From Dyella nitratireducens (GTDB taxonomy: Bacteria > Pseudomonadota > Gammaproteobacteria > Xanthomonadales > Rhodanobacteraceae), in the NCBI RefSeq assembly GCF_014642835.1, contig NZ_BMJA01000003.1, positions 396,497 to 460,496 of the forward strand: a stretch of DNA of 64,000 nt. The letters are read 5' to 3'. Shown here piece by piece: positions 9,251 to 31,794 of this stretch. Under the pieces are notes generated by a model. That model worked only from the letters and a program-made list of their open reading frames with translations. It was not told the origin of the DNA and did no database searches. Within the stretch, counting starts at the first letter, position 1; every line of letters starts with the position of its first letter. The translations under genes and the position numbers were made by a program.

Positions 9251-9271
9251 ATACGAACGTCCAGTTCATAT
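9251..9271. promoter_or_regulatory. Candidate operator (ATACGAA-N7-TTCATAT) upstream of glucokinase 1
   Basis: Imperfect dyad ATACGAA (9251-9257), 7-nt spacer, TTCATAT (9265-9271), extending to ten-base arms with one mismatch (9249-9258 and 9264-9273). It lies in the 231-bp AT-rich gap between the sialidase-like gene and the kinase, about 105 bp upstream of the chosen kinase start. The same 7-7-7 layout recurs at 21931 and 31765 in front of fucose genes. The rest of the gap shows no gene. Confidence 0.5.
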
Positions 9272-9379
9272 ATATCTGATAGTGAGCTTATACGCCCTGT
9301 TTAGATCGTGGCAAGTCGCGACGCAACAGAATGCAAACATTCGTAACAATTTACGTACCCTTGAATGATCAGGCAGGCC

Positions 9380-10453
9380 TCAGAGCTGCCCCGGATCGAG
9401 CACCACGTGGGCAATGCGCAGCCGCTTCCACGTATAAGTAATGTGTATCCGGCCATCTCCTGCCTGGATCACGGCCGGGTAGGAGAACTCGGCGCCGGAG
9501 CTCTGTTCCAGCGTAAGTACCTGTTTCCAATGCTCTCCATCGGGTGAGACGGCCACGGCGAGCGTGCCGCGGCCATTCCACCAATCCTTGCCGTGCACGG
9601 TCGGGTTGTAGACCAGACAGGCGCGGCCGTCGGCGAGCATCACCGCATCGATGCCAGAGTTGGGGTTGGGCAGGTCCAGCAGCTTCAGCTCGGACCAGGT
9701 ATGCCCGCCATCGGCGGACCAGGTGGTGAACAGGTGATTTTGCTTGGTACGTCCGATCGCCTGCAGCTTGCCGTTGCGCCATGGCAACAGGCTAGGTTGG
9801 ATAGCCTCGATCGCATGGGGATTGGGGACGGGCTGGCTCTGTTGCCAGGTCGCTCCGCCGTCGCTGGAAAGCTCGAAATGAATCGTCCAGCGCCCCAACT
9901 CCGTGCTCGATGGGGCGACGATGCTGCCGTCGGTGAGTTGCACCGGCTTGTCTTTGATCGGGCCAAGCAAACCATCCGGCAGAGCATGCGCTTGGGACCA
10001 ATGCGCGCCGTTGTCGGTAGACGTCTTGAGCAAGCCGTGCCAGTGCTGTGGATCTGGCCCGACTTTGTAGAACAGCATCAGGGGTCCTTGGTGCGGAAGA
10101 AACAGCACCGGGTTCCAGGTGGGTTCGCGGTGCCCATCCGGTTGTACACCGTTGGCCACTTCGACTGGCGTGGTCCAGTGACCATGTATTTGCCGCGATA
10201 ACCAGATGCCGACACTGGGGTCGCGCTCTTGTTTGCCGCCGAACCAGGCGGTGACGAGGCCGGCAGGTGTTTCGACGATAGTGGAGGCGTGGCTTTGTTT
10301 GGTGGGCGGTGTCGTGGCGATGAATTCGCGTAGCACGATGGGGTTGTTGTCTGCCATGGCTAGGGTCGGCACACCGAGCAACAAAATAAGTACACGGCAT
10401 GCTTGTGGCAAATGACGGGCTGTTTGCTTTGGAGAAAACAAATATCGAAACAT
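9380..10453 (-). CDS. Sialidase-fold (BNR/Asp-box) exported protein
   Basis: Predicted six-bladed propeller of the sialidase superfamily, about 357 residues, with an N-terminal export signal (hydrophobic core around 22-34, cleavage after AMA). Four Asp-box motifs are visible: STDNGAHW, SSDGGATW, SADGGHTW and the degenerate SPDGEHW. The family-typical SHASTIVE and WFGGKQERDPSVGIW are near the N-terminus. I do not see the FRIP-type arginine motif of true GH33 sialidases, so release of sialic acid should not be assumed; another glycosidase or lyase activity is possible. ATG at 10453 is used; GTG at 10456 is adjacent in frame. It follows GH35 by 32 bp in the same orientation and probably belongs to the GH29-GH18-GH3-GH35 unit. 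Confidence 0.82.
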   Translation of the reverse strand: MFRYLFSPKQTARHLPQACRVLILLLGVPTLAMADNNPIVLREFIATTPPTKQSHASTIVETPAGLVTAWFGGKQERDPSVGIWLSRQIHGHWTTPVEVANGVQPDGHREPTWNPVLFLPHQGPLMLFYKVGPDPQHWHGLLKTSTDNGAHWSQAHALPDGLLGPIKDKPVQLTDGSIVAPSSTELGRWTIHFELSSDGGATWQQSQPVPNPHAIEAIQPSLLPWRNGKLQAIGRTKQNHLFTTWSADGGHTWSELKLLDLPNPNSGIDAVMLADGRACLVYNPTVHGKDWWNGRGTLAVAVSPDGEHWKQVLTLEQSSGAEFSYPAVIQAGDGRIHITYTWKRLRIAHVVLDPGQL

Positions 10454-10485
10454 CACTCAATGCCCTCATCGTGCCTCATCGTCAT

Positions 10486-12327
10486 TCACTCAGACGTCTT
10501 TACGTCCGGCATCGACCAGATCGACTGCCTTACACCACGCACCACCGCCTGCTTCGGCGTCTTCAAATCAAACACCACCACGGTGTTGTCGCCCTGCTGC
10601 AACCATGGCGCCGGTAAATAGAGCGAACGCTGCGGGCCGATATCCCAGATACGCCCGAGGTTGTGGCTGTTGACCCACACAAAGCCTTTGCCGAACGCAG
10701 TTACGTCCAGAAACGTATCGGCCAACGCCGCCAAGGTGAAGTGACCGCGATGAAACGCAGGCCCTTCTACAGCTTGCGTGGTCCAACCACGAATGGCATC
10801 CGCTGAGGTCATCGGCAATGGGTACACCTGCCAACCATGCAGTGCCTTGCCGTCGAGCATCACTGGATCAACGAGTCCTGCGCGGCCATCCGCAAGATGC
10901 GGTCCGTAGTTGATACGCCCGGTGTTCTCCACCAACACGTCCAGCGTGTGCTCACCCGCATCGATGGTGACAGGCAAGCTCACCTGCTTGAGCCGCCGAT
11001 CCACCGTGCCCACCAGTTTGTGGTCAACGTAGATCGATGCGTAGTCGCGCACGTCACCCAGATAAAGCTGCCCTTGAATGGCCCCGCTGACTTGCGTGCG
11101 ATAAAGGATGTAGCCGTAGGCCTGGCCGAACTGCTCCATGGATTGTGGCTGGTCTACGGTGATCGGTTCCGGCAGGTTGTCCCACAGCGATGCCGATTCG
11201 CTCAGCGTAACCGCGGGTACGTCCATGAACGGCGTAGGTGCGGGCAACGGTGGCGGCGTGATACCGGTGGCTTTGGCGATCACGGCACGAAACGTCGCGA
11301 ATTTCGGTTTTGGCCGGCCGGCTTCGTCCAGCGGCGCGTCATAGTCGTAACTGGTGGTTTGCGGCGCGTAATGATCGCTGGGATTGCCCTGGAAATTGGC
11401 GCCATTCATGAAGCCGAAGGTGGTGCCGCCTTCGAACACGAAAACGTTGAGCGAATAGCCCTGGCTCAACATCCACGCCAGTTCCTTGGCTTGCACGGTC
11501 GCATCCGTGTGCGCGTGCGGTTCACCCCAGTGATCGAACCAGCCGGCCCAGTATTCGCCAGCCATTCGTGGTTGATCGGGACGAAATGCCTCAAGCGTTT
11601 TGAATGCGCTCTTCGCTTCGCCAGTGTTGAAATTCACCACGGCAAGCACGCCGGGCAGCGTGTCGTTGCGCAGTTCATCGGCGCCGTCGGAGGTAAACAG
11701 GATATCGGTGCCCAGACCGGCGCGAACCAGCGCCTGGTGAATGTCTTCCATGTACACGCGGTCATCGCCGTATGAGCCGTACTCGTTCTCCACCTGCACG
11801 GCGACGATCGGACCGCCGTGCGCCGCCATCAGCGGCGACAACTCCCGGCCCAAACGCTGAAAATAACGATCTACAGCTTTGAGATATGTCGGGTCCTGCG
11901 TGCGCACATGCAGATGTGGATCGGCGAACAGCCAGGCAGGAAAGCCGCCCGCTTCCCATTCGGCGCATACATAAGGGCCCGGGCGCAGGATCACGTCGAG
12001 CCCTTGGGCCTGTGCCATGCGCACGAATGCGGCGACGTCATTGTCGCCGCTGAAATCGAACTGTCCTGGTTTGGGCTCGACCAGATTCCAGTACACGTAC
12101 GTAGTGATGGCATTCAAGCCCATCGCGCGTGCTTTTTGCAGGTGGTCCTGCCAGTAGGCACGTGGGATGCGTTGGAAATCCATCGAGCCGGAGATGATCT
12201 GGTGCGGCTTGCCGGCACGAATGAAATGGCTGCCTTCGATGGTGATGGGCGTTTTCGCCTGGAGTGGCGTGCTCAGTAGAAAGGTGGCGCCAAGCAAGCA
12301 TGCTGCAAACCATGCGTTCGCTTTCAT
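10486..12327 (-). CDS. GH35 beta-galactosidase
   Basis: Exported beta-galactosidase of 613 residues that removes terminal beta-linked galactose. Signal peptide about 1-24. The GH35 barrel includes TYVYWNLVEPKPGQFDFSG (about 76-94), the acid/base Glu182 in QVENEYGSYG and the likely nucleophile Glu258 in AGEYWAGWFDHWGE. Jelly-roll domains follow, ending with VWVNSHNLGRIWDIGPQ and LYLPAPWLQ, both typical of the family. Its ATG overlaps the GH3 stop codon (ATGA), so the two are translationally coupled. With fucosidase and hexosaminidase next door it could process Lewis-type antennae; xyloglucan or galactan side chains are alternatives. Confidence 0.95.
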   Translation of the reverse strand: MKANAWFAACLLGATFLLSTPLQAKTPITIEGSHFIRAGKPHQIISGSMDFQRIPRAYWQDHLQKARAMGLNAITTYVYWNLVEPKPGQFDFSGDNDVAAFVRMAQAQGLDVILRPGPYVCAEWEAGGFPAWLFADPHLHVRTQDPTYLKAVDRYFQRLGRELSPLMAAHGGPIVAVQVENEYGSYGDDRVYMEDIHQALVRAGLGTDILFTSDGADELRNDTLPGVLAVVNFNTGEAKSAFKTLEAFRPDQPRMAGEYWAGWFDHWGEPHAHTDATVQAKELAWMLSQGYSLNVFVFEGGTTFGFMNGANFQGNPSDHYAPQTTSYDYDAPLDEAGRPKPKFATFRAVIAKATGITPPPLPAPTPFMDVPAVTLSESASLWDNLPEPITVDQPQSMEQFGQAYGYILYRTQVSGAIQGQLYLGDVRDYASIYVDHKLVGTVDRRLKQVSLPVTIDAGEHTLDVLVENTGRINYGPHLADGRAGLVDPVMLDGKALHGWQVYPLPMTSADAIRGWTTQAVEGPAFHRGHFTLAALADTFLDVTAFGKGFVWVNSHNLGRIWDIGPQRSLYLPAPWLQQGDNTVVVFDLKTPKQAVVRGVRQSIWSMPDVKTSE

Positions 12328-14927
12328 CGTGGCAATGCCTCGCGTCCGTCGATGACAAACTGTGCCGTTACCCCTTCGCTGTAACCAGGCTGGCCACCAC
12401 CGACAAACAGACGGTAATGTCCTGCCATCACCGCACGCTGCCCCAGGGCATCGACATGGCTTAATGGCCGCGGTGCCAGTTCAAACGTCACACGCCGGCT
12501 TTCTTTCGCACGCAAATGCACGCGCTGAAAGCCAACCAGCGCATGACGCGGCGCCAGCGCATCATCCGGCGCATCGAGATACACCTGCACCACTTCGTCA
12601 CCATCGCGATCGCCATCGTTACGCACCAGGGCGCTCACAGTGAGCGTCTTGCCGGCATCGAGCTTGGTGGTCGAGAGTTGCGGCTGTGCATAGGCGAAGT
12701 GCGTATAGCTCAAGCCGTAACCGAACGGATAAAGCGGGGTGCCCGTGAAGTAGCGATAAGTGCGCTCCTTCATCGCATAGCTCACAAACGGCGGCAAGTC
12801 GCGCGTGGAACGATAGAAAGTCACTGGCAGGCGCCCACCTGGGTTGTAATCGCCAGCCAATACCCGCGCCACGGCACGACCACCCTCTTCACCCGGATAC
12901 CACGCTGCCACGACGGCGCTGGCGTGCTCTTTCGCCCAGTTCAACGCGACGGCACTGCCCGACATCAGCACGACGATCAGTGGCTTGCCACCGGCAGCTG
13001 CGCGTTCAAGCATGGCTTGCTGCGATGGCGGCAAACCGATATCGGTGCGATCACCGCCGTTGAAGCCGGGCACGTCGACCTTCAGCTCCTCGCCTTCCAC
13101 GTCCGGCGACAGACCGATGAAGGCAACAGTGGCATCGGCATCACGCACGGCTGCTTCCGCTTTGGCCAACTGAGCCTGTTCTGGCGCCAGCCACTGCAAG
13201 CGTATGCCCTGGTCCTGGCCGCTATGCACGTACTCAAGACGGATCGTATGCGAACGCGTATCGGCAACATGCAGCACGGTCTGCATAGATGAGTCGTCAC
13301 CGTTATCGTCGAGCACCTCGCGGCCATCGACATACAGGTGCACCGGATCGTGCTGCTTGTTGCAGTCGAAACAACGGTCCACATGCAACGCCAAGGTGTA
13401 ATCGCCTGCGCCAGGCGGCAACCATTCGCCAGTCCATCGCACGGCATAACGACCATCATGCTGACCATCGATCGGCGTTACCTGATCCCAATCGAAGTCG
13501 ACCACGCGATCCGTTCGCGTCAAGGCGGGCTTGCCGTTGAAATCGGCATGATCGAAATATTCGCCGGTGAGGCCGGTGCTTCCGCTTGCCGTATGCAGCG
13601 CGGTTTCGGGAATCGTGATCGGCACGCCTTCCGCAATGGGTGCGCCTTGCGCATAGCGAATGTGATCGGCGCCGAAGCGCTCGCGCAGACCAGCAAGCGG
13701 TGTTACCGGCGCACGTGCAGTGCCGTGATAATTGGCTTCCAGCGTCTCCAGCGTATCGGCATTGGGACCGATCACGGCAAGGCGTGTACCGGATTGCAAC
13801 GGCAGCGTGTTGTTTTCATTCTTCAACAGCACGATGGATTCCAGTGCCGCCAGCAGGGCCAGCTGCCGATGCTTGGAGCTATCGACCTGATCCATGCCGA
13901 TGCCATCGTACGGACTCTTGTCGTCACCCCATTCGCCTAGGCGATAACGCGCGGTAAACAACCGCGTAAGTGCCGTATCGATGACCGATTCCTGCAGGTA
14001 GCCCTTGTTCACGGCTTCGAGCAGGTCGGCATACGCATTGCCGCAATCCAGATCCGTACCGGCCTGGATCGATGCCGCAGACGATTGCGCGTTGTCCGGC
14101 TTGAAATAATGGAACTTGGTCATGTCGTCGACCGCATCGCAGTCGGACACGACAAAGCCTTTGAAACCCCAGTCGCGACGCAGCCGTGTCGCCAGCAGAT
14201 CGTTATCCGCGCATACCGGCGTGCCATGGAGCGCGTTATAGGCGCACATCACCGAATCAGCGTGGCCTTCCGTGACGGCAGCGCGAAACGCCGGCAGGTA
14301 CGTGGCTTCCAGATCATGCGGCGATACATCCACATCGAAACCATGCCTGCCCGCTTCCGGCCCGCTGTGCACGACAAAGTGCTTGGGCGTGGCGATGGCG
14401 CGCGGATGGTCGGGATCGTCGCCCTGGATGCCATGAATGAAATGGACGGCGAGCTGGCCAGTGAGGAAAGGATCCTCGCCATAGGTTTCCTGTCCCCTGC
14501 CCCAGCGTGGGTCGCGGAAGATATTGATGTTGGGCGACCAGATAGTGAGCCCGTCGTAGCGCGCATGATCGCGGCCGGCACCGATGGCGTTGAACTTGGC
14601 GCGCGCCTCGGTGGAGACGGTGGTACCGACCTGTTGTAGCAGTTGCGTATCCCAACTGGCGGCGAGGCCGATGGCTTGCGGGAAAACGGTCGCGTAACCG
14701 TTACGCGCGATACCGTGGAGACCTTCGCTCCACCAGTCGTAGGCGGCAATATGAAGGCGCGGGATGGCTGGGGCGCCGCTTTGTACTTGAGCGACTTTTT
14801 CGGGCAGCGTCATCTTGGCGACGAGTGTGACCGCTTTGGAGTCAACACTCGTGTTCTGAGCAACGGCGCTCGCTGCCGTGAGCAGAAGGCCGACCATTGC
14901 GGCAAGACGCGGCAGCTTTATATGCAT
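12324..14927 (-). CDS. GH3 beta-glycosidase with PA14 insert
   Basis: Exported GH3 enzyme of 867 residues, probably a beta-xylosidase or beta-glucosidase. Signal peptide about 1-23. The N-terminal barrel has the GH3 landmarks SPNINIFRDPRWGRGQETYG, KHFVVHSGPE and the nucleophile Asp262 in GFVVSDCDAV. The C-terminal GH3 domain is interrupted by a PA14 domain (about 452-585, TGEYFDHADF to IRLQWLAP), which often shapes the active-site entrance, and a fibronectin-III-like domain closes the protein (VVQVYLDAPDD onward). ATG start; ATGA overlap with GH35 downstream. A palindromic repeat sits upstream between it and GH18, so it may be partly insulated from GH29-GH18. In an N-glycan setting the core beta-1,2-xylose would be a logical substrate, which is inference. 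Confidence 0.94.
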   Translation of the reverse strand: MHIKLPRLAAMVGLLLTAASAVAQNTSVDSKAVTLVAKMTLPEKVAQVQSGAPAIPRLHIAAYDWWSEGLHGIARNGYATVFPQAIGLAASWDTQLLQQVGTTVSTEARAKFNAIGAGRDHARYDGLTIWSPNINIFRDPRWGRGQETYGEDPFLTGQLAVHFIHGIQGDDPDHPRAIATPKHFVVHSGPEAGRHGFDVDVSPHDLEATYLPAFRAAVTEGHADSVMCAYNALHGTPVCADNDLLATRLRRDWGFKGFVVSDCDAVDDMTKFHYFKPDNAQSSAASIQAGTDLDCGNAYADLLEAVNKGYLQESVIDTALTRLFTARYRLGEWGDDKSPYDGIGMDQVDSSKHRQLALLAALESIVLLKNENNTLPLQSGTRLAVIGPNADTLETLEANYHGTARAPVTPLAGLRERFGADHIRYAQGAPIAEGVPITIPETALHTASGSTGLTGEYFDHADFNGKPALTRTDRVVDFDWDQVTPIDGQHDGRYAVRWTGEWLPPGAGDYTLALHVDRCFDCNKQHDPVHLYVDGREVLDDNGDDSSMQTVLHVADTRSHTIRLEYVHSGQDQGIRLQWLAPEQAQLAKAEAAVRDADATVAFIGLSPDVEGEELKVDVPGFNGGDRTDIGLPPSQQAMLERAAAGGKPLIVVLMSGSAVALNWAKEHASAVVAAWYPGEEGGRAVARVLAGDYNPGGRLPVTFYRSTRDLPPFVSYAMKERTYRYFTGTPLYPFGYGLSYTHFAYAQPQLSTTKLDAGKTLTVSALVRNDGDRDGDEVVQVYLDAPDDALAPRHALVGFQRVHLRAKESRRVTFELAPRPLSHVDALGQRAVMAGHYRLFVGGGQPGYSEGVTAQFVIDGREALPR

Positions 14928-15063: not shown

Positions 15064-16113
15064 TCAACGCTCAACCACCGGCAACTCATCCCACACCTTG
15101 GGATCCTCCGCGCCCAATACCCAGGAGCAGAACCCTTCCAGATCGTATTGCTTCACCAGCGCATAGCGGTCGCGAAAACTGTGCGCGTCGGGCATGAACA
15201 CCCACTCGCGCATATCGTCGCGATAGAAGTAGTACCAGGACTCGTGCTCCACCGGATCCCATTGCACGACGGCTTTTTGTTCCTGCGCCAATGGAATCGA
15301 TTCGTCTGCATCGATGTAGGTGGCCGAGATATTGGACGCTTCGCTGCCGTCCTCACGCACCGGATTGCCGGTGTACCAGCGATAGCCATACAGCGCGATG
15401 CCGAGCGAAAGCTTCTGCTTCGGCACCAAGGTCAACGCGTACTTCAGCTGATCGAGCATCCACGGCATGGCATCGACGGGACCTGGCGTGGTCCAACGGG
15501 TATGCTGATCGTAAGTCATCAGGCAGATGAGATCGGCGTATTTGCCAAGCGCAGCCAGGTCATAAGCGCCACGCCAGTACTGCCACATCCATTTGGAGAA
15601 CGGACCTTCACCCGCATGCCCAGGCCCATTGGGTACCACGGCGATGGACAGCGTCAGGCCGTGCTTGTGCAAGGCCTCCGCCGTCTGCTTCACCAACAAG
15701 GTGTAGGCATCGCGATCCGTCCAGGAGATGCTTTCAAAGTCGAACTGGTAGCCGGCATAACCATGCTCGGCCGCCTGTTGCAGCATCGACTCGATCAGGT
15801 GTTGCTTGGCGGTCTCGTCATGCAGCAGATCGTGGAAGCCCTTGCGTCCAGCCGACATGGACATGATCGGTGTCACCGGCAAACGATGCTGCTTGGCCAG
15901 ATCAAGCACGTAGTTGTCCGGACCGCCGTTCACCAAGCCCTCTGCGTCCACCTGGTACCAGGTGGGCACCAGCAAGCCGATCTTGTCGATATGCGCGGTG
16001 AAGGAGTTGGTCGACTTCTGCGTGCTCATCAAATAGAACAACGCTGTCGGCTGTTTTGCATAAGCCACGCTGCATGCCAGTGCCGCAGCGAGAAAGCAGA
16101 CAAGCTTTTTCAT
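15064..16113 (-). CDS. GH18 family glycoside hydrolase (chitinase / endo-N-acetylglucosaminidase type)
   Basis: Exported GH18-type hydrolase of 349 residues. Signal peptide about 1-19 (chosen ATG at 16113, MKKL...; a longer in-frame start at 16131 would overlap the upstream gene and spoil the signal peptide). The catalytic strand reads GYQFDFES with Asp125 and Glu127, matching the Dx(D)xE pattern of GH18; SMSAGR and LICLMTYDQH correspond to other conserved barrel strands, and the end (FCSWVLGAEDPKVWDELP) resembles YaaH-like and chitinase-like members. It begins 1 bp after the fucosidase stop, so the two form an operon. Cleavage of the chitobiose core of N-glycans is attractive in context; a chitin or peptidoglycan substrate is not excluded. 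Confidence 0.87.
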   Translation of the reverse strand: MKKLVCFLAAALACSVAYAKQPTALFYLMSTQKSTNSFTAHIDKIGLLVPTWYQVDAEGLVNGGPDNYVLDLAKQHRLPVTPIMSMSAGRKGFHDLLHDETAKQHLIESMLQQAAEHGYAGYQFDFESISWTDRDAYTLLVKQTAEALHKHGLTLSIAVVPNGPGHAGEGPFSKWMWQYWRGAYDLAALGKYADLICLMTYDQHTRWTTPGPVDAMPWMLDQLKYALTLVPKQKLSLGIALYGYRWYTGNPVREDGSEASNISATYIDADESIPLAQEQKAVVQWDPVEHESWYYFYRDDMREWVFMPDAHSFRDRYALVKQYDLEGFCSWVLGAEDPKVWDELPVVER

Positions 16114-16114
16114 A

Positions 16115-17719
16115 TTACTTGGCCAGTTCAATACGATAGACGTAGGCGTAGTCGCCTGCCGGTTGTGCCGGCAGCGTCAGATGCAGACCATCCGCCTGCT
16201 GCTGCCAGGCGATGCTCTTACCATTGGCGAGCAGGCTTACCGCGCGCACATGGTCGTCGGGCTTGATCGAATGGATCACCGCCGTGCCATCTTGCGGCCA
16301 GCCCAACTCGGTGGCGTAGAGCATGCCGTCCTTGGTGGTAAAGCGGAAATCCTCAGCGGTATACGGCTTGGTCTTGGTGTCCTGGAACGTGCCGCCAACG
16401 ACTTCGGTGGGACCTTCACCGAAGGTGCGCCATGGCGTGGTGCCATAAATGGCGTCGCCATTGGCCTTCAGCCAGCCGCCCATGGCAAGCAGGATTTTCT
16501 GTGCATCTTCAGGGATGGTGCCGTCCGCACGCGGCCCGATATTGAGCAGCAGATTGCCATTCTTGCTGACCACATCCACCAGCAGGTGGATCAACTCTTG
16601 CGGCGACTTGTAGGTATCGCCCTTGATGTAGCCCCAGGAGGTATTGCTGATGGAGGTATCGGTTTGCCAATGCGCCTGCTGGATGCCGGTCAGCTGTCCG
16701 CGCTCGATATCCAACGTGCCGGCGTTTTCGGCGAAATCGCCTTGTTTGTAATTGACCACCACCCCGCCGCGCTTCGCACCTTCGTTGTAGTAATACGACA
16801 GCATCTTCGGCAACGTGTTGCGGAAGGTGGGATGCCCGATCCACCAATCGAAATACAGGACATCCGGGTGGTAGTCATCGATCAGTTCGGCCGTACGCGC
16901 CAGCCAGTCATCCAGCCAGGCCTGCGAGACATAGGTCCAGTCGTTGTAGAGGTCCTCGTCCTTCTTGGCCAGATGTGCTTCGGCGGGACCATAAAGGCCC
17001 GCATAGCGCGGATCGTTGACGTCGGAATCGAACTTGCGGCCGCCATCGAAGAACCAGTCATGTTCGGCGCGATGCGATGACACGCCGAAATGCATGCCTT
17101 CCGCGCGAACGGCTTTCTCCAGCTCGCCGATCACGTCGCGATGCGGCCCCATCTTTACCGCCGTCCATTCCGACAGCTGCGAGTTGTACATGGCGAAACC
17201 GTCGTGATGCTCTGCCACCGGGATGACGTAACGCGCGCCGGCTTCCTTGAACAATTTGGCCCATGCCTGCGGATCGAAATGCTCCGCCTTGAACATGGGA
17301 ATGAAATCCTTGTAGCCGAACTTCGACTGCGGACCATACGTAGCTACGTGGTGCGCATAATCGGGCATGTTCTGCTGATACATGTTGCGCGAGTACCACT
17401 CGCTGCCGAAAGCCGGCACCGAATACACGCCCCAGTGAATAAAAATGCCGAACTTGGCATCGTCATACCACTGCGGTGCGCTGTACTGCTGCAGCGAAAC
17501 CCAGTCAGCACGAAACGGCCCGTCGTTCATATGCTGTGCGACGCGAGCAAGTATGGCCTTGCGTTGCGGCTCGAATTGGGCGGTGGCCTTCTGCCAGGCC
17601 AAGTCGGCTTGCGCGGGAGAAAGGGTCTTGGCCGTCGGTGCCGTTGGCGACTGCTGCGCCGTGGCGATGCCTGCCATGCAGGCCAACGCAATGCCAAGAT
17701 GGAACAAAGACCGTTTCAT
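16115..17719 (-). CDS. GH29 alpha-L-fucosidase 1
   Basis: Exported retaining alpha-L-fucosidase that releases L-fucose. The ATG at 17719 gives 534 residues with a signal peptide (about 1-21) and a strong ribosome binding site (GGGAGAGGG); in-frame codons further upstream lack these. GH29 features: GIFIHWGVYSVPAFGSEWYS (about 91-110), EHHDGFAMY (about 170-178) and the nucleophile Asp291 in LYFDWWIGHP. GNLLLNIGPRADGTIP marks the end of the barrel, followed by a C-terminal beta-domain. It is the first gene after a strong terminator and heads the minus-strand unit GH29-GH18-(GH3-GH35-sialidase-like). The released fucose would feed the catabolic operon at 22 kb. A second, shorter GH29 lies at 32657-34027. 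Confidence 0.95.
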   Translation of the reverse strand: MKRSLFHLGIALACMAGIATAQQSPTAPTAKTLSPAQADLAWQKATAQFEPQRKAILARVAQHMNDGPFRADWVSLQQYSAPQWYDDAKFGIFIHWGVYSVPAFGSEWYSRNMYQQNMPDYAHHVATYGPQSKFGYKDFIPMFKAEHFDPQAWAKLFKEAGARYVIPVAEHHDGFAMYNSQLSEWTAVKMGPHRDVIGELEKAVRAEGMHFGVSSHRAEHDWFFDGGRKFDSDVNDPRYAGLYGPAEAHLAKKDEDLYNDWTYVSQAWLDDWLARTAELIDDYHPDVLYFDWWIGHPTFRNTLPKMLSYYYNEGAKRGGVVVNYKQGDFAENAGTLDIERGQLTGIQQAHWQTDTSISNTSWGYIKGDTYKSPQELIHLLVDVVSKNGNLLLNIGPRADGTIPEDAQKILLAMGGWLKANGDAIYGTTPWRTFGEGPTEVVGGTFQDTKTKPYTAEDFRFTTKDGMLYATELGWPQDGTAVIHSIKPDDHVRAVSLLANGKSIAWQQQADGLHLTLPAQPAGDYAYVYRIELAK

Positions 17720-17827
17720 GCTGCACCCTCTCCCGATGTGGTTTGAACGGCTCATCATGCCAGCAACACACATGATGACAAGTTCCTTTAAAGCATCCAT
17801 GTCCCGGAAGGGACAGGGAGCTGGAAT

Positions 17828-21951: not shown

Positions 21952-22053
21952 ATACACAGCAAAAGAGATGCGCGATGATGGGCGGATAAGGGCACGGCCA
22001 GGCAGGAAAATCGCCTCGCCGTGGGGTGGTCCAGCAAGTCATCGTGAGGACGA

Positions 22054-23082
22054 ATGGCGGCATCAACGACCAAGCCGGATCTGGATCAAGCCAGCACTCG
22101 GAAACCTGCATGGCTGGCTTCACAGCTGTCGTTTGGCGGCGCACCGGTCGGCAATCTGTACGCATCGGTGGACGATGCTTCTGCCGCCGCCACCATCACG
22201 CATGCCTGGCAACGCGGTATCCGGCACTTCGATACCGCGCCCTACTACGGCTACGGCCTGAGCGAAAGCAGGCTAGGCGCGGCATTGCGCGGCGTGCCAC
22301 GCGAAAGCTTCACCTTGTCGACCAAGGTGGGACGCCTGATCGAAGACGATGCACAACAGACCAGCCATACCGATGGTTTTATCGTCGATGGCCACCGCGC
22401 ACGCTTCGATTACAGCCGCGACGGCGTGCTGCGTTCTTTCGAAGCAAGCCTGCAACGTCTGGGCACGGATCACATCGACGTGCTGCTGCTGCATGACGTC
22501 GGTGCACTCACGCATGGCGAACACCACGCTGCCATCCTGCGCCAGGCGCTGGAAGAAGCATTGCCGGCGATGGCGGAATTGCGCACGCAAGGCGCATGCA
22601 GTGCGATCGGCATCGGCGTGAACGAAGAAGCGGTGTGCCTGGAGGTGATGCCGCGCTTTCCGCTCGACGTGATCATGCTGGCCGGGCGCTACACCTTGTT
22701 CGAGCAGCAAGACAGCCAGAACGTGATGGCGCAAGCGCAAGCACGCGGCGTGGCGGTACTGGCAGCAGGGCCCTACAACTCCGGCCTGCTTGGCGGCGCG
22801 CAAGGCCCGGGCAAGTTCTACAACTATGCGCTTGCCGATGATGTGGTCGTGGCGCGCGCGCAACGTTTCTACGATGTGCTCGCGCGCACGCATACCGACG
22901 TGGGCGCCGCGGCCTTGCAGTTTCCGCTGGCACATCCAGCCGTAGCGAGCGTGGTATGCGGATTGCGCTCGATCGAAGAAGTCGACCAGGCTGCTGCACG
23001 CATGCAAGCTTCCATTCCAGCCGAGGCATGGCGCACGTTGCGCGACGCCGGCCTGTTGCAGGAGAGCGTGCCGACGCCATGA
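22054..23082 (+). CDS. Aldo/keto reductase, probable L-fucose 1-dehydrogenase
   Basis: NAD(P)-dependent aldo/keto reductase of 342 residues, first gene of the fucose operon. Expected reaction: L-fucose to L-fucono-lactone. The AKR tetrad is visible: Asp in HFDTAPYYG, Tyr in the same segment (YYGYG), Lys in STKVGR and His in LLLHDVG; the family begins SQLSFGGAPVGNLY. ATG is preceded by GAGGA. The stop overlaps the next start (ATGA). The assignment rests on gene order, which reproduces the L-fucose pathway described in Xanthomonas campestris; by sequence alone it could also be a D-threo-aldose or galactose dehydrogenase. Upstream lies the shared operator region with glk2. Confidence 0.87.
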   Translation: MAASTTKPDLDQASTRKPAWLASQLSFGGAPVGNLYASVDDASAAATITHAWQRGIRHFDTAPYYGYGLSESRLGAALRGVPRESFTLSTKVGRLIEDDAQQTSHTDGFIVDGHRARFDYSRDGVLRSFEASLQRLGTDHIDVLLLHDVGALTHGEHHAAILRQALEEALPAMAELRTQGACSAIGIGVNEEAVCLEVMPRFPLDVIMLAGRYTLFEQQDSQNVMAQAQARGVAVLAAGPYNSGLLGGAQGPGKFYNYALADDVVVARAQRFYDVLARTHTDVGAAALQFPLAHPAVASVVCGLRSIEEVDQAAARMQASIPAEAWRTLRDAGLLQESVPTP

Positions 23083-24014
23083 TCATCGTCGACGCCCATC
23101 AGCATTACTGGCAGCCTGCCCGCGGCGATTACGGCTGGCTCGGGCAGGCACCGGCGATGCTGCAACGGGCATTTCTGCCGCGCGATCTTTGTGCACAGCG
23201 TGCCGCGGCGGGCGTGCAATTCAGCGTATTGATCCAGGCGGCGCCTACCGAAGAAGAAACGCGCTATCTGTTCGATCTCGCGCACCAAGATCCTGGCATC
23301 GTGGGCGTGGTCGGCTGGGTCGATATGGAAGCGAACGACGTGGGCGCGCATATCGATGCGCTGATTCACGACGGCAAAGGTCTCTTGCGCGGATTGCGCC
23401 CGATGGCGCAGGACCTCGCCGATCCGGACTGGCTGGCCAGACCCTCGCTCGATCGCGCCTTCGACTGCATCCAGGATGCGGGCCTCAGCTTCGATGCACT
23501 GGTCGACATGCGCCACCTCCCTGCCCTGTTGCGCAGGCTGCAACGACACCCGCAGTTGAACGTCGTGCTCGATCATGCCGGCAAGCCGGCGATCGGTGAT
23601 GGGCGCTTCGATCAATGGACGTGCTGGATCGATGAGTTGTCCCAGCATCCGCAGTTGCATTGCAAGCTTTCCGGCCTGCTTACGCTGCTTGGCGAGCCGG
23701 TGCATGAAGATGCCATCGAGCCCTATGTTGCCGACCTGTTCTCGCACTTCGGTCGCGAACGCCTGATGTGGGGCAGCGACTGGCCGGTGTTGACCACGCG
23801 CGCCGATTACGCGCATTGGTTGCACGTCGCCATGATCTTGGCCGAGCGCTACGCCAGCGGATCGCAGGCGGAGGTCTTCGCCGCGAATGCCGTGCGTTTT
23901 TATGCGCTGGATATCGATCTTACATCTCACGAAAAAACCTTGAATCGTCGTCCCGGCGAAAGCCGGGACCCAGCGACTTTGCTCGCGAATCAAAACAAGG
24001 AGAAAAACTCATGA
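23079..24014 (+). CDS. Amidohydrolase family 2, probable L-fuconolactonase
   Basis: Cytoplasmic amidohydrolase-2 enzyme of 311 residues expected to hydrolyse L-fuconolactone to L-fuconate. It starts at the ATG overlapping the previous stop; the metal-site HxH motif is at the very N-terminus (DAHQHYW), with VLDHAGKP and LMWGSDWPV as later family landmarks, and FAANAVRFYAL is the normal family C-terminus. After that, the last 25 or so residues (RRPGESRDP... to NKEKNS) are encoded by a family-2 palindromic repeat fused into the reading frame and by the ribosome binding site of the next gene. The stop overlaps the next start (ATGA). The tail is probably neutral. Confidence 0.88.
   Translation: MIIVDAHQHYWQPARGDYGWLGQAPAMLQRAFLPRDLCAQRAAAGVQFSVLIQAAPTEEETRYLFDLAHQDPGIVGVVGWVDMEANDVGAHIDALIHDGKGLLRGLRPMAQDLADPDWLARPSLDRAFDCIQDAGLSFDALVDMRHLPALLRRLQRHPQLNVVLDHAGKPAIGDGRFDQWTCWIDELSQHPQLHCKLSGLLTLLGEPVHEDAIEPYVADLFSHFGRERLMWGSDWPVLTTRADYAHWLHVAMILAERYASGSQAEVFAANAVRFYALDIDLTSHEKTLNRRPGESRDPATLLANQNKEKNS
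23946..23975. repeat. Family-2 palindromic half-element inside a coding sequence
   Basis: Hairpin GTCCCGGC-gaaa-GCCGGGAC (23950-23969) within CGTCGTCCCGG...ACCCAG, continuing as CAGCGACTTTGCTCGCGAA. The same sequence type starts the paired element at 58088. Only one arm is present here, and it is translated as the C-terminus of the lactonase. Confidence 0.8.
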
Positions 24015-24757
24015 GCGGCCGCCTCTCAGGCAAATACGCATTGATCACCGCCGCAGGCGCCGGCATCGGCCACGCCACCGCCCTCGCCTTCGCCAAGGAA
24101 GGTGCAAAGGTGCTGGCGACCGACATCAACGCCGATGCACTGGCCAGCCTTGCCGCCGAGCATTCGTCGATCACCACCCGCACACTCGACGTGACGCAAC
24201 CGGAACAAATCCAGAAGCTGGTCGGCGACAGCGCACCCTTCGACGTACTGTTCAATTGCGCCGGCTACGTGCACGCGGGCACCATCCTGGACACCGACGA
24301 TGCGAGCTGGCGCCGCTCGTTTGCGATCAACGTCGACAGCATGTTCCACCTGTGCAAAGCCGTGCTGCCCAGCATGCTTGAGCGCAGCAAGGGCAGCATC
24401 ATCAACATGTCTTCGGTGGCTTCCAGCATCAAGGGCGTGCCGAATCGCTTCGCGTACACCGCCACGAAAGCAGCCGTGATCGGCCTTACCCGCTCGATTG
24501 CCGCGGATTACGTCACGCGCGGGGTGCGCTGCAATGCGATCTGCCCCGGCACGGTGAAAACGCCATCGCTGGGCGATCGCGTACGCGCACTGGCTGGCGA
24601 TGAAGATACCAACTGGCGCAGCTTCGTTCAGCGCCAGCCGATGGGCCGCCTCGGCGAACCCGAAGAAATCGCCGCGTTGGCGTTGTATCTCGCCTCCGAC
24701 GAATCGTCTTTCACTACCGGCACCGTGCACATCGTGGACGGCGGCTGGTCCAACTGA
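24011..24757 (+). CDS. SDR-family 2-keto-3-deoxy-L-fuconate dehydrogenase
   Basis: Short-chain dehydrogenase of 248 residues, expected to oxidise 2-keto-3-deoxy-L-fuconate to 2,4-diketo-3-deoxy-L-fuconate with NAD+. Rossmann motif [12 protein letters not shown] near residue 13, Asp of DINADAL for NAD preference, NCAGY, and the catalytic Ser/Tyr/Lys in MSSVASS...FAYTATKAA; the end ([15 protein letters not shown]) is typical of SDRs. The ATG at 24011 overlaps the lactonase stop, and AAGGAG lies 10 bp upstream, inside the lactonase tail. The next gene starts 15 bp downstream. Specificity is assigned from pathway context and similarity to the Xanthomonas fucose operon enzyme. Confidence 0.9.
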
Positions 24758-24772: not shown

Positions 24773-25627
24773 ATGAAACTCGTACGCTATGGCACGGCCG
24801 GTAAGGAAAAGCCCGGCCTTATCGACAAAGACGGCGCGCTGCGCGATCTGTCTGCCGTTGTCACTGACATCGATGCGCAAGTGCTCGGCCGCGAAGGCCG
24901 CGCACGCCTTGCCGCGATCGATCCGCAAAGCTTGCCGCTGGTCGCCGGTGAACAGCGCTACGGCGCGCCGGTGTCGCATGTGAGCAAGTTCATCTGCGTG
25001 GGTTTGAATTACAGCGAGCACGCGGCGGAAACCGGCGCGCCGATTCCGGAACAGCCGATTCTCTTCATGAAGGCCACCAGCGCCCTCAACGGTCCCAACG
25101 ACGACGTGATCATTCCGCACCGCTCGGTGAAAACCGACTGGGAGGTTGAACTGGGCGTGGTGATCGGCGAGACCGCACGCAGCGTCAGCGTGGAGAACGC
25201 ATTGGCGCACGTGGCCGGCTACGTGGTGGTGAACGATCTTTCCGAGCGCGAGTTCCAGCTCGAACACGGTGGCCAGTGGGTGAAAGGCAAAAGCTGCGAC
25301 ACCTTCGGCCCGATCGGCCCGTGGCTGGTCACCACCGACGACGTGCCCGATCCACAAAACCTCGACCTTTGGCTGGAGGTGAACGGGCATCGCTACCAGA
25401 ACGGCAACACGCGCACGATGATTTTCGGCGTGGCGCAATTGGTGAGCTACATCAGCCGTTACATGACGCTGCTGCCCGGTGACGTGATCAGCACAGGTAC
25501 CCCTTCGGGTGTTGGCCTGGGCCTGAAGCCGCCGGTATACCTGCGCCCCGGCGACGTGATCGAACTGGGCATCGACGGACTCGGCACGCAACGCCAGCGC
25601 GTCCACGCGCATCCGAATGACCGATGA
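24773..25627 (+). CDS. FAH-family 2,4-diketo-3-deoxy-L-fuconate hydrolase
   Basis: Fumarylacetoacetate-hydrolase-fold enzyme of 284 residues that should cleave 2,4-diketo-3-deoxy-L-fuconate to pyruvate and L-lactate. Family landmarks: [29 protein letters not shown], the metal-binding acidic cluster in [35 protein letters not shown] and [14 protein letters not shown]. It lies 15 bp after the SDR and its stop overlaps an ATG at 25624 in the frame of the next gene (ATGA). FAH enzymes of L-rhamnose and L-fucose routes look alike; the dehydratase next door fixes the pathway as fucose. Confidence 0.9.
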
Positions 25628-25680
25628 CATTGCGTGACCGCACCCAACCCACACTTACTGGATGCAAGGACAGCCACTCG

Positions 25681-27000
25681 ATGACCAAGATCACGGCGCT
25701 GGATACTTACGACGTTCGCTTTCCTACTTCGCGCGAACTGGACGGCTCGGATGCCATGAACCCCGATCCGGACTATTCCGCGGCGTACGTCGTCATGCGC
25801 ACGGATCAGCCCGGCCTGGCTGGCTATGGCCTGGCTTTCACCATCGGCCGCGGCAACGACGTGCAGAAGGCGGCGATCGATGCGCTGGCTGATCATGTCG
25901 TCGGTCTTGACCTGCACGACGTTATCAACGACCTCGGCGGCTTTTCGATGCGCATGGTTGGCGACTCGCAACTACGCTGGCTAGGCCCTGAAAAAGGCGT
26001 GATGCACATGGCGATCGGTGCCGTGGTCAATGCGGCGTGGGATCTTGCCGCGCGCGTGGCAGGCAAGCCGCTGTGGCGCTTCATCGCCGACATGACGCCG
26101 GAGCAACTCGTCGCGACCATCGATTTTCGCTATCTCACCGACGCACTGACGCCGGAAGAAGCACTCACCATGCTGTACGCCGCCGCGCCCGGCAAAACCA
26201 AACGCATCGAGCAATTGCTGGCGGAAGGCTACCCCGCCTACACCACCTCGCCCGGATGGCTCGGCTATTCCGACGAAAAAATGCAGCGCCTGGCGCGCGA
26301 AGCTGTTGCCGCGGGCTTTCGCACCATCAAGCTCAAGGTGGGCATGAACGTGGAAGACGACGTGCGCCGCTGCCATCTCGCGCGCGCTACGGTGGGGCCG
26401 GATATCGCTATTGCCGTCGACGCGAACCAGCGTTGGAACGTGCCCGATGCCATCGCCTGGCTGCGCCGGCTGTCGGATGTGGGCCTGGAGTGGGTGGAAG
26501 AACCCACCAGTCCGGACGACGTGCTCGGTCACGCCACCATCCGCCGCGCCGTGGCGCCCGTGCCGATTTCGACCGGCGAGCACACGCAGAATCGTGTGAT
26601 CTTCAAGCAGTTGTTCCAGGCTGGTGCGGTGGATCTGGTGCAGATCGATGCGGCGCGCGTGGGCGGCGTGAACGAAAACCTGGCGATTCTGCTGCTGGCG
26701 GCCAAGTTCGGCGTACGCGTGTATCCGCATGCCGGCGGTGTCGGCCTGTGCGAGCTGGTGCAGCACCTGGCGATGGCCGATTTCGTGGCGATCACCGGCA
26801 AGAAGGAGGATCGCGCCATCGAATTCGTCGATCATCTGCACCAGCATTTCGTTGACCCGGTCATGATCCGCAACGGGTGTTATATAGCGCCTTCCGCACC
26901 GGGCTTTTCCGCGCAGATGCATACCGAGACACTGGCGCAGTATCGTTTTCCGGATGGCCCTGTCTGGTGTGAATCGCTGGACGCTGCGACTGCCCCATGA
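25681..27000 (+). CDS. L-fuconate dehydratase (enolase superfamily)
   Basis: Enolase-superfamily acid-sugar dehydratase of 439 residues converting L-fuconate to 2-keto-3-deoxy-L-fuconate. It shows the opening [36 protein letters not shown], the catalytic KxK in RTIKLKVG, metal ligands in [17 protein letters not shown] and STGEHTQNR, and the His of [11 protein letters not shown]. From memory it is very close to the characterised Xanthomonas campestris enzyme. ATG at 25681 gives the usual length; the ATG at 25624, overlapping the previous stop, would add 19 residues not expected in the family but could keep translational coupling. The stop overlaps the next start (ATGA). Confidence 0.95.
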
Positions 27001-28199
27001 CAACACCGATCACCAACGTTGCCGATCTGCGCGAACTCGCTAGGCGCCGCGTGCCGCGTGCCTTCTTCGAATACGCCGATCGCGGCTCATACGATGAAGT
27101 CACGCTGCGCACCAACCGTGCTGCGTTCGAACGTATCGCCTTTCGGCAACGGGTGATGAGCAATGTCGATAACCGTTCGCTGGCCACTGACATCATCGGC
27201 CAGCCGGTATCGATGCCACTGGCGATCGCTCCCACCGGACTCACCGGGCTGCAACACGGTGGCGGTGAAATCCTCGGTGCGCGTGCGGCCGAGAAAGCCG
27301 GCATCCCCTTCTGCCTGAGCACCATGTCGATCTGCTCGATCGAGCAGGTGCGTGCTGCGGTGGAAAAGCCGTTCTGGTTCCAGGTCTACGTGATGCGCGA
27401 CCGCGGCTTCACCCGTGACCTGATCCAGCGCGCCAAGGACGCGGGATGTTCCGCGCTGATGCTCACCGCCGATCTCACCGTGCAGGGCCAGCGTCATCGC
27501 GAAATCAAGAACGGCCTGTCGGTACCGCCCAGGATCACCTTGCGCAACATCTTCGACATGGCCAGCAAGCCACGTTGGGCATGGAGCATGCTGCGTGCAC
27601 CGAGCCGCTCCTTCGGCAACCTGCAAGGCCGTATCCAGAACACCGACAGCCTCACGACGTTGGCGCAATGGATCGCCAACCAATTCGACCCTACGCTCGA
27701 GTGGAAAGACCTGGAATGGATTCGCGAGATCTGGCCCGGCAAGCTGATCATCAAAGGCATTCTCGATCCGCGTGATGCGCGTGTGGCGGCATCGCTCGGT
27801 GTTGATGCCATCGTCGTGTCCAATCACGGCGGACGCCAGCTGGACGGTGCCCCCGCAACGATCGATGTGCTGCCGTCCATCGTACAGGCCGTGGGCGATC
27901 GCATGCAGGTGCTGTTCGACAGCGGTATCCAGAGCGGGCAGGATTTGCTCAAGGCGCTTGCTTACGGCGCGCATGCCGGATTGATCGGCAAGGCGTTTCT
28001 TTATGGCCTGGGTGCGATGGGCGAAGCTGGCGTAAGCAAGACCATCGAGCTGATTCGTAAAGAGTTGAGCGTGAGCATGGCGCTGACCGGGCAGACCGAT
28101 GTGCGGCGTATTACGCCAGACATCATCTGGCGCAAGCCTGGGGATGGTTTGCTCAATATCGTCAACATCGAGGATACCGGCGTTCCGTGCCGTACGTAG
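26997..28199 (+). CDS. lldD: L-lactate dehydrogenase, FMN-dependent
   Basis: Membrane-associated FMN-dependent L-lactate dehydrogenase of 400 residues that oxidises the L-lactate made by the fucose pathway to pyruvate, passing electrons to quinone. Visible are [30 protein letters not shown], the substrate/FMN segment [11 protein letters not shown] and the catalytic His and Arg in [14 protein letters not shown]. It starts on the ATGA overlap with the dehydratase and closes the operon. The TAG stop (28197-28199) lies inside the first bases of palindromic repeat copy B, so the native 3' end may have been altered by the repeat; the last residues (CRT) are partly repeat-encoded. Confidence 0.94.
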
Positions 28200-30029: not shown

Positions 30030-30389
30030 TTACAACGCCTTTAGCGCTTCTTTCAGCGAAAAGATGCGCCCCATCATCACCCATTTCTGCCCCGGCTCGG
30101 CCCACGGCAAGCGTTGCTGATATTGATCCATCAATTGCTCCCACTCCTTCGTCCTCGCGTCGGCGTCGGCGTCAGATTCGCTCCTGGCGGAGGGCATGTG
30201 GTCATCCGCTATCTTGACCGCCATCACCAGACGATTCCCGGTGCGGAAGATTTCCATCTCCTCGATACCTGCTGCGCGGATGGACGTCACGATTTCCGGC
30301 CAGATCACACCTGGGCGATGCCAACGTTCGTACTCGGCGATGGCAGCGGCATCGTCCCTGAGATCCAGGGCGTAGTAATAGCGCTGCAT
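30030..30389 (-). CDS. L-fucose/L-rhamnose mutarotase (RhaM family)
   Basis: Small cytoplasmic aldose 1-epimerase of 119 residues in the RhaM family, interconverting alpha and beta anomers of a 6-deoxy-L-sugar. Motifs: YYALDL at the N-terminus, the active-site region YERWHRPGVIWPEI with the family His, GIEEMEIFRTGNRLVMAV, and WVMMGRIFSL at the end. ATG at 30389 shares its first base with the TGA of fucP (TGATG), so it is the second gene of a fucP-mutarotase operon. Context points to L-fucose, supplying the anomer preferred by the dehydrogenase. Confidence 0.9.
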   Translation of the reverse strand: MQRYYYALDLRDDAAAIAEYERWHRPGVIWPEIVTSIRAAGIEEMEIFRTGNRLVMAVKIADDHMPSARSESDADADARTKEWEQLMDQYQQRLPWAEPGQKWVMMGRIFSLKEALKAL

Positions 30390-31705
30390 CAGATCGCACT
30401 CCGTACGGTGCGGCGGCGCCAGGCAAACAAGGCGATGATGGCGAAGCTGCAAGCCGGCACCACCATCGCGTCGGACATGCTGGAACGATCGGAGACCGCG
30501 CCCATGATTGCCGTGAGCACCGCGCCACCGATGATGGTCATCACCAGCAGACCGGAGCCGAGTTTGCGTTCGTCATCGCTGCGGCCCTCCACACCCAAAG
30601 CGAAGATGGTCGGATACATCACCGACATAAAGAAACTGCACGCTGCCAGCGCGTAAGCACCGCTAATGCCGGGATGCACGACCGCGTACAAGGTAAGGAC
30701 GACGTTGATGGCCGCAAACGCAAACAGCAGACGCACCGGCGCCACGTATTTCATCAAGGCGGCGCCGGCGAACCGGCCGACCATGAAACACACCAACTCC
30801 GCGGTGAGGAAATTCGCGGCCAACTTGGCCGGCGTGCCATGCATGGTCGCCTGCACGTAGCGGATGGTGTAGCTCCATACGCCCACCTGCGCACCAACAT
30901 AGAAGAACTGCGCCAGCATGGCACCGATGAAAAACTTGTCGCGCAGCAGTCGGCCCATCACGCCCGAGCCTGCAGTCGGCGTTGCAGTGGCACGCGGCGC
31001 AGCGGCTTTGGGAAAACGTGTGGCAAGAATCAGCGCCGCCCAGCCCAACACCACCAGGCCAATCACCAGATACGGCCACTGCACGGCCTTGGTTTCGCTG
31101 ACGTAGTACGCCACACGCTGCGCATCGCTCATCGCCGCCAGCTGTTCCGGCGTGTGTTCGACGCCGGAAAAGATGAAGTGCTGGCCGATCAGGATGCCCG
31201 CGATCGAGCCAAGCGGATTGAATGCCTGCGCCAGATTGAGCCGGCGCGTGGCGGTTTCCGGCGGACCAAGCAAGGTCACGAACGGATTGGCCGAGGTTTC
31301 CAGAAAAGCCAGGCCGCTGGCGATCACGAACAGCGCGAACAGGAACATGCCGTAGGTGGCCTTTTCGGCCGCCGGCCAGAACAACAACGCACCGATGCCA
31401 TAGAGCATGAGGCCGAAGACCACCGCGCTCTTGTAGCCGAAGCGGCGCATATACATGCCGGCCGGCATGGCGATCAGGAAATAGCCGAGGTAGAACGCGC
31501 TCTGGACCAGCCCGGCCTCGAAATCGCTGAGCACGAAGGCTTTCTTGAATTGCGCGATCAGCACGTCGTTGAGATTGTTGGCGCCGCCCCACAGGAAGAA
31601 CAGGCTGACGATCAGCACCAGCGGCAGCCAGATGCGGCCTGTGCCTGCATGCATCGTATCGGCGGCCGGCATGGAGGTGTCTTCTGTCACGGTTCGCGCT
31701 TCCAC
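30389..31705 (-). CDS. fucP: L-fucose:H+ symporter
   Basis: Inner-membrane MFS transporter of 438 residues, FucP type, importing L-fucose with protons. Diagnostic stretches are FFLWGGANNLNDVLIAQFKK in the first helix, GYFLIAMPAGMYMRRFGYK, GLAFLETSANPFV and NLAQAFNPLGS; twelve hydrophobic helices are visible. The start is GTG at 31705, well supported by AGGAG at ideal spacing; an ATG at 31672 is an alternative. It is followed by the mutarotase (TGATG junction) and is divergent from the IclR regulator across 160 bp carrying a nested inverted repeat. It completes the route from periplasmic fucosidases to the cytoplasmic fucose pathway. Confidence 0.95.
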   Translation of the reverse strand: MEARTVTEDTSMPAADTMHAGTGRIWLPLVLIVSLFFLWGGANNLNDVLIAQFKKAFVLSDFEAGLVQSAFYLGYFLIAMPAGMYMRRFGYKSAVVFGLMLYGIGALLFWPAAEKATYGMFLFALFVIASGLAFLETSANPFVTLLGPPETATRRLNLAQAFNPLGSIAGILIGQHFIFSGVEHTPEQLAAMSDAQRVAYYVSETKAVQWPYLVIGLVVLGWAALILATRFPKAAAPRATATPTAGSGVMGRLLRDKFFIGAMLAQFFYVGAQVGVWSYTIRYVQATMHGTPAKLAANFLTAELVCFMVGRFAGAALMKYVAPVRLLFAFAAINVVLTLYAVVHPGISGAYALAACSFFMSVMYPTIFALGVEGRSDDERKLGSGLLVMTIIGGAVLTAIMGAVSDRSSMSDAMVVPACSFAIIALFAWRRRTVRSAI

Positions 31706-31756
31706 CTGGTTCTCCTACCTATTGCGGCAGGTCCCCGGGGTGACGACCCTGCCCAT

Positions 31757-31794
31757 TTGTGCAAATATGAAATGGTTATTCATAGATAGCACAA
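31757..31794. promoter_or_regulatory. Nested dyad operator between fucP and iclR
   Basis: Inner perfect dyad TATGAA (31766-31771), 7-nt spacer, TTCATA (31779-31784); outer dyad TTGTGC (31757-31762) and GCACAA (31789-31794), both centred near 31775. The inner element shares the ATATGAA-N7-TTCAT layout seen at 9251 and 21931. It sits in the divergent promoter region, where an IclR-type regulator usually binds. Confidence 0.6.

Follow-up and report, generated by a model that had tools for sequence, protein, structure and literature searches.

What controls the glycan-degradation and fucose genes that lie side by side in one 64,000-nucleotide stretch of the Dyella nitratireducens genome (the window)? 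An earlier note on this DNA had drawn attention to a dyad motif, ATATGAA-N7-TTCATAT, in three promoter regions of its glucokinase and fucose genes, and had proposed as binder the IclR-family protein encoded next to the third, here called FucR. Followed through the window, the whole genome and related genomes, this interpretation is supported in silico: the motif is very probably the operator of FucR, which would thereby control the release, uptake and oxidation of fucose. The result is a predicted regulon and operator sequence for the use of fucose and fucosylated glycans across Rhodanobacteraceae and Xanthomonadaceae, with hints at function for unnamed genes that adjoin the sites, chiefly TonB-dependent receptors of the TBDT1 type (Table 1).

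The palindrome in the window and in the genome

The three sites were confirmed at 9251, 21931 and 31765, with exact 7-7-7 spacing and one mismatch each (ATACGAA..TTCATAT at site 1, ATATGAA..TTTATAT at site 2 and ATATGAA..TTCATAG at site 3). From base composition, 0.0012 sites with at most one mismatch are expected in the window; with up to three mismatches allowed, the same three matches compare with 0.72 expected from shuffles, and three were reached in 5 of 100 shuffles. The TTGTGC/GCACAA dyad in which the earlier note saw site 3 nested is present in this sequence, but its conservation is partial only: in an alignment of the window with 13 relatives, a left-hand GTGC and a right-hand ACAAG never change, and the bases that would pair them into a dyad vary. 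The conserved unit is instead a 29-bp palindrome, roughly GCAMATATRAA-N7-TTYATATKTGC.

A symmetric matrix, built from 56 sites that all come from other genomes, placed four positions of the window far above the rest (34.8 to 22.5 bits; next 8.7), and their order was kept when close relatives were left out of the training (34.7 to 21.8 bits; next 8.8). The fourth of these, site 2b, was absent from the earlier note and is offset from site 2 by 91 bp towards glk2.

Across the whole genome, four sites carry at most one mismatch and seven more carry two; the same pattern read backwards gave none. Equally good matches outside sugar promoters are thus not numerous: three of the four are the sites already noted, and the fourth, at contig 2:703900, lies 80 bases ahead of the likely start ATG of an alpha-L-fucosidase of glycoside hydrolase (GH) family 29 (L092:6101). 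The longest frame of this gene starts further up and would enclose the site; a signal-like stretch starts at the chosen ATG, the Pfam domain is found only from residue 114 of the long frame, and the chosen ATG is the likely start. A close orthologue was found in one of ten relatives (G006), with a site of 29.3 bits just before its frame. The genome holds four GH29 genes: two belong to the window and lie downstream of sites 2b and 3, and one follows the contig 2 site; in the 3.9-kb locus of the fourth (C1:2220047), no matrix match of at least 8 bits was found.

In addition, we scanned the genome with a covariance model, R1, made from 35 sites, each taken in both orientations and all from other genomes (35 of 36 sites were kept in its alignment, a mis-placed row, L069, being left out). 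At E<=10 it returned four sites, the three noted ones and the contig 2 site; site 2b was not recovered at this threshold. The scan was not exhaustive, since 150 of 360 first-look candidates were scored.

The seven sites with two mismatches, placed against the open reading frames of six genome stretches, were judged to be chance matches: four lie within open reading frames and three in gaps before HipA-, H-NS- and CheW-family genes. The matrix gave four of them 9.6-11.8 bits and two less than 8. The remaining one, an AT-rich palindrome with 22.9 bits (ATATGCATAATATATGCATAT; G000 contig 1:1294824-1294844, L095:6825), falls in the 5' portion of a reading frame that has no Pfam match and may be another regulator's site.

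Conservation of the sites and their occurrence with FucR

The sites are kept in related genomes at the glk1, glk2/fucose and fucP/iclR positions. In 80 loci of fucR orthologues, the best match in the 320 bases ahead of the gene has on average 2.35 mismatches out of 14, compared with a mean of 5.39 (lowest 3.55) for shuffled arms and 4.35 to 6.28 for other spacers; among spacers of 3 to 12, only the seven-base spacing stands out. Three mismatches or fewer were found in 69 of these loci and four or five in the other 11, and the matrix reached at least 18 bits in 78, the exceptions being L088 and L090. Part of the 80 loci (1.54 Mb) served as the training set of the matrix. Together they hold 142 matches of at least 18 bits, of which 78 immediately precede fucR, 62 are found 6.9-9.6 kb ahead of it and two elsewhere, and 6 Mb of Markov background gave none. 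Where genes were checked, in a few loci (for example L072 and L049, and L011 and L012 via L165 and L162), the 6.9-9.6-kb position is the fucose operon gap. The two matches elsewhere (L035 and L047) each directly precede a TonB-receptor gene. In L047, from a metagenome-assembled genome, a 28.3-bit site at 11951 stands just upstream of the TonB receptor, and a GH29 homologue follows further along.

A site precedes the best glk1 match in 10 of 10 relatives, and in one of them (G009) this position is the fucose-operon gap itself. The glk2/fucose gap carries paired sites in all five loci compared (L162-L166), 91-93 bases apart; elsewhere the members of a pair lie 84-115 bases apart, and some loci have one only. 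In aligned gaps the sites form islands of conservation, and the block of site 2b is conserved between the window and six relatives. Between sites 2b and 2 (window 21865-21926), that alignment shows two further conserved elements, TTTAGATCG and a TGCAAC..TTT.TT block; these are perhaps promoter elements or a second regulator's site. Directly after site 3 (window 31790-31809), an ACAAG..GC..GCA.CAT block is largely conserved between the window and 13 relatives.

These data bear on whether the three sites could be chance AT-rich palindromes. The promoter gaps are indeed AT-rich (47-53% GC versus 60% in the window), and unrelated palindromes do occur, as on contig 1. Against this stand the conservation in 10 of 10, 5 of 5 and 78 of 80 loci, the specificity across the genome and the empty backwards control. 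On conservation and whole-genome specificity we reject this explanation, to which we assign a negligible probability.

We then looked beyond fucR. With R1 at E<=1, sites were found in all 28 relative genomes, 17 of them new and outside the stretches round fucR. Genes at the new sites were named by BLAST against the window proteins, and their starts were set mechanically. TBDT1 homologues are the commonest first gene (6 of 17), followed by glk1 (4), fucose-operon gaps (3) and GH29 (2); one further site lies between a second fucR and GH29, and the last (L142) stands by genes without a recognised link, so that 16 of 17 adjoin TBDT1, glk1, GH29, the fucose operon or a second fucR. At L137 the longest TBDT1 frame exceeds its homologues in length, and the site lies within the 5' end of this frame. 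At L148 the second fucR copy has its own site and adjoins GH29-GH18-TBDT1. Two FucR-like proteins occur in some genomes (L148; G036, G039, G060). In 15 genomes chosen from Xanthomonas-type loci, R1 at E<=1 gave one site each, at the fucR position; one of these 15, G187, has a second site, which directly precedes a TBDT1 homologue. At the Xanthomonas operon the site scores lower, with 17.8-23.5 bits where seen.

Among 147 family genomes, FucR (E<=1e-40) is present in 49, and the fuconate dehydratase FucD (E<=1e-120) in exactly the same 49. A motif scan with stricter filters found matches (E<=0.5) in 37 of the 147; FucR is present in 36 of these 37, compared with 49 of all 147 (Fisher p 3e-22). 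The training sites came in part from the 36 genomes with motif and FucR, and none came from the 98 that lack FucR. The single genome with a motif and no FucR (G105; E 0.096) was judged a chance match; the 8-kb stretch compared there contains nothing homologous to the fucose or glycan genes of the window. In G018, the same genome as G068 by contig positions, the fucose operon and fucR lie on separate contigs, and a site (L151) nonetheless accompanies the operon. In G036, G060 and G089, all of one genus (g9), the fuconate dehydratase match contains one in-frame stop.

FucR as candidate binder and its possible mode of control

FucR has IclR architecture, with an N-terminal PF09339 (HTH_IclR, 8.5e-14) and a C-terminal PF01614 (IclR_C, 2e-19). 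Fourteen solved sequences match it, several of them named IclR family, KdgR or TtgV. Its NCBIfam matches (PcaR/PobR, BhcR and KdgR-like) all fall below cut-off, the best being the PcaR/PcaU/PobR subfamily, and by the NCBIfam equivalog it is not KdgR (71.8 bits versus a cut-off of 275). Nor is it the DeoR-type FucR of E. coli and Bacteroides: IclR_C and HTH_IclR are the best of the five Pfam matches listed, and DeoR is not among them. The gene is divergent from fucP (TIGR00885), which fits an IclR-type FucR context. The nearest named FucR orthologues are from Dyella, at 93% in D. choica and D. flagellata.

In spacing and outer half-sites, the motif itself resembles a known IclR operator. The group-2 consensus of this family, of which KdgR is an example, is TGRAACAN1-2TGTTYCA (Suvorova and Gelfand 2021; PMC8222616), and it holds TGRA-N7-TYCA when its middle is one base. 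The N7 spacing is found at all three sites. Only site 3 preserves TGAA as well as TTCA, with CGAA in place of the former at site 1 and TTTA in place of the latter at site 2; the relatives' consensus is TGAAC-N5-GTTCA. Unlike the group-2 motif, the present one has arms extended to GCAMATA/TATKTGC, lacks the inner CA..TG and serves fucose genes. Tandem sites and tetramers are described for the IclR family (PMC8222616), and paired sites occur here too, although at 84-115 bp rather than the tandem spacing of 18-22 nt in that paper.

FucR is our candidate binder because of its adjacency to site 3, the co-occurrence with the motif, the second iclR copy with its own site at L148 and the partial group-2 match. 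It could instead be that another transcription factor binds the motif and FucR merely shares the cluster, as FucR is always found together with the pathway (49 of 49) and binding by FucR is itself a prediction. Yet no transcription-factor family of Pfam or NCBIfam was found among the 19 other listed window genes, a scan outside which small unlisted open reading frames fall, and both the extra fucR copy with a site and the group-2 likeness argue against such a factor, which we consider improbable.

Several observations weigh against FucR as the operator-binding switch or limit its reach. The motif fits the outer half-sites and spacing of group 2, and the inner CA..TG step is unmatched. FucR and FucD are found in the same 49 genomes and never apart, so that co-occurrence by itself does not tell FucR from another regulator that might accompany the pathway. 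Moreover, 13 of the 49 FucR genomes have no motif match at E<=0.5: eight hold a FucR at 54-57% identity, two only a fragment (G166, G170), and G096, G110 and G171 one at 63-73%. The E-values of R1 are modest (0.13 and 0.61 for the other two noted sites beside that of site 2 in Table 1, and 0.47 on contig 2). Site 2b scores no better than the contig 1 palindrome, which has no sugar context, and therefore rests on conservation, not score. None of the GH18, GH3, GH35 and BNR genes has a site to itself, and control would reach them only through transcription that runs on from the glk2 promoter. A sigma-70-like promoter was sought at the three gaps and none was found, so that placement of the sites over a promoter, and hence repression, is unsupported. 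Finally, Campylobacter jejuni FucR did not release DNA when fucose was added in vitro (PMC12566272).

How might FucR act at these sites? A dimer or tetramer would bind the 29-bp palindrome at site 1, at sites 2 and 2b and in the fucP/fucR gap, and at a fifth site upstream of the unlinked alpha-L-fucosidase. Without fucose, it would most likely repress the outer-membrane uptake of fucosylated glycans, the fucosidases, the uptake and oxidation of fucose, and fucR itself; it would be released by fucose or by something formed in its breakdown. That fucP and fucR share site 3 makes autoregulation probable. The IclR-type FucR of C. jejuni (Cj0480c) represses its fucose operon (PMC12566272). Given that FucR is the binder, it is probably a repressor relieved by a fucose product, as is favoured by its membership of the IclR family, the group-2-like motif and the C. 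jejuni precedent.

FucR could also bind the sites and activate, or both activate and repress, in response to a fucose product, like IclR proteins of the PobR/PcaU type. Its best NCBIfam match, below cut-off, is to that subfamily; the site centres, 70 to 113 bp ahead of the fucP, fucR and fucose operon start codons (113 bp for site 2 and the operon), suit an activator too; and the failure to find a sigma-70-like promoter at the gaps points the same way. The nearest functional precedent, that of C. jejuni, is however a repressor, and a single shared divergent site with autoregulation is usual for repressors. We therefore hold activation to be unlikely, though less so than binding by another factor.

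FucR would likely be an on/off switch whose type is otherwise not unusual, that of the local sugar regulators of the IclR family. Tentatively, and with less confidence than for the points above that we favour, FucR might be the master switch of fucosylated-glycan foraging in Rhodanobacteraceae: one fucose-derived signal would open TBDT1-type receptors, enzymes that trim plant N-glycans, fucosidases at separate places on the chromosome, uptake and oxidation. With operators paired at a distance of about 91 bp, a tetramer might hold both divergent promoters in a loop, and in Xanthomonas the regulon would mostly have shrunk to local fucose genes.

Related systems and the genes of the cluster

Like C. 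jejuni FucR, the protein studied here is IclR-type, and its gene diverges from fucose genes of a route other than that by isomerase and kinase (PMC12566272); the two were likened by description. The C. jejuni regulon is almost one locus, whereas the one predicted here adds glycan hydrolases, TonB receptors and an unlinked fucosidase (PMC12566272). FucR sites were predicted earlier by comparative genomics at oxidative fucose loci of a microbial-mat consortium (PMC5507952). As here, those sites stand beside oxidative fucose genes, and one genome has an X. campestris-like FucP; the predictions concern different organisms, Halomonas and Alphaproteobacteria among them. Xanthomonas campestris oxidises L-fucose by a pathway (Yew et al. 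2006, as cited in PMC5507952) whose genes are of the same kinds as those in the window: lactonase, fuconate dehydratase, dehydrogenase, hydrolase and FucP. A search of titles and abstract openings, from which subscription journals mostly fell outside, found no IclR fucose regulon of Rhodanobacteraceae or Xanthomonadaceae, and no paper that joined RegPrecise with a Xanthomonadales IclR; RegPrecise itself and the regulon tables of PMC8222616 lay outside this search. An earlier prediction of such a regulon is possible.

The genome comprises 5.68 Mb in 14 contigs, and the glycan and fucose cluster spans window 2260-34027. On the minus strand, in order of transcription, lie glk2, TBDT2, GH29a, GH18, GH3, GH35, the BNR protein, glk1, TBDT1 and GH20. 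The plus strand carries the fucose oxidation operon (22054-28199), beyond which come fucP and a mutarotase (minus) and fucR then GH29b (plus), the latter starting 18 bases past the fucR stop.

Table 1. Predicted operators and genes of the cluster, in window coordinates
Feature	Position	Strand	Basis or remark
GH20 hexosaminidase	2260..4509	-	Pfam PF00728 3.3e-111
TBDT1, TonB-dependent receptor	4743..7793	-	Pfam
glk1, glucokinase-family sugar kinase	8030..9208	-	NCBIfam NF009073 over cut-off
Site 1, predicted operator upstream of glk1-TBDT1-GH20	9247..9275	.	29.3 bits; 26.9 without close relatives in training
BNR-repeat protein	9380..10456	-	Pfam PF13088
GH35 beta-galactosidase-like	10486..12327	-	Pfam
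GH3 glycoside hydrolase, xylosidase-like	12324..14927	-	Pfam; NF041776 5.3e-254, below cut-off
GH18 glycoside hydrolase	15064..16131	-	Pfam PF00704 3.1e-27
GH29a alpha-L-fucosidase	16115..17800	-	Pfam PF01120 7.3e-109
TBDT2, TonB-dependent receptor	17889..20660	-	NCBIfam TIGR01782 over cut-off
glk2, glucokinase-family sugar kinase	20590..21705	-	NCBIfam NF009073 over cut-off
Site 2b, predicted second operator, glk2/fucose gap	21836..21864	.	22.5 bits; 21.8 without close relatives
Site 2, predicted operator of fucose oxidation operon	21927..21955	.	34.8 bits; 34.7 without close relatives; genome-wide E 0.005; conserved in gap alignment
Aldo/keto reductase, fucose operon gene 1	22054..23082	+	Pfam PF00248
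L-fuconolactonase-like protein	22956..24014	+	NCBIfam NF052480 2.2e-57, below cut-off
Short-chain dehydrogenase (SDR)	23768..24757	+	NCBIfam SDR families
2,4-didehydro-3-deoxy-rhamnonate hydrolase-like (FAH family)	24773..25627	+	NCBIfam NF053535 3.5e-132, 440 bits, below cut-off 500
Enolase-superfamily sugar-acid dehydratase, taken as L-fuconate dehydratase (fucD)	25624..27000	+	NCBIfam enolase-superfamily dehydratases, below cut-off
L-lactate dehydrogenase (lldD-like)	26997..28199	+	NCBIfam NF008398 over cut-off
Sugar mutarotase (rhaM family), after fucP	30030..30452	-	Pfam PF05336 1.3e-25
fucP, L-fucose:H+ symporter	30389..31705	-	NCBIfam TIGR00885 over cut-off
Site 3, predicted operator, divergent fucP and fucR	31761..31789	.	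28.4 bits; 25.7 without close relatives
fucR, IclR-family regulator, proposed binder	31866..32639	+	Pfam HTH_IclR and IclR_C; start ATG 31866
GH29b, second alpha-L-fucosidase, next after fucR	32657..34027	+	Pfam Alpha_L_fucos 2.3e-42

Plant complex N-glycans bear alpha-1,3 and alpha-1,4 fucose, beta-1,2 xylose and Lewis a antennae, and X. campestris has GH29 and GH92 enzymes for plant N-glycans (PMC10154615). The set of GH29, GH18, GH3, GH35 and GH20 enzymes in the cluster would suit a plant complex N-glycan as substrate. We take the N-glycan (nix) cluster of X. campestris to be a likely parallel, likened by gene kinds.

Some gene starts allow more than one choice: that of glk1 is uncertain (TTG 9208, GTG 9148 or GTG 9040), and ATG 21705 of glk2 is one among several candidates. 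The solved sequences closest to glk1 carry the name glucokinase; the 'glucokinases' of the cluster may use another sugar such as N-acetylglucosamine, as work on Xanthomonas suggests. An AbiEii-like nucleotidyltransferase gene lies at window 28927-29643, between the fucose operon and fucP.

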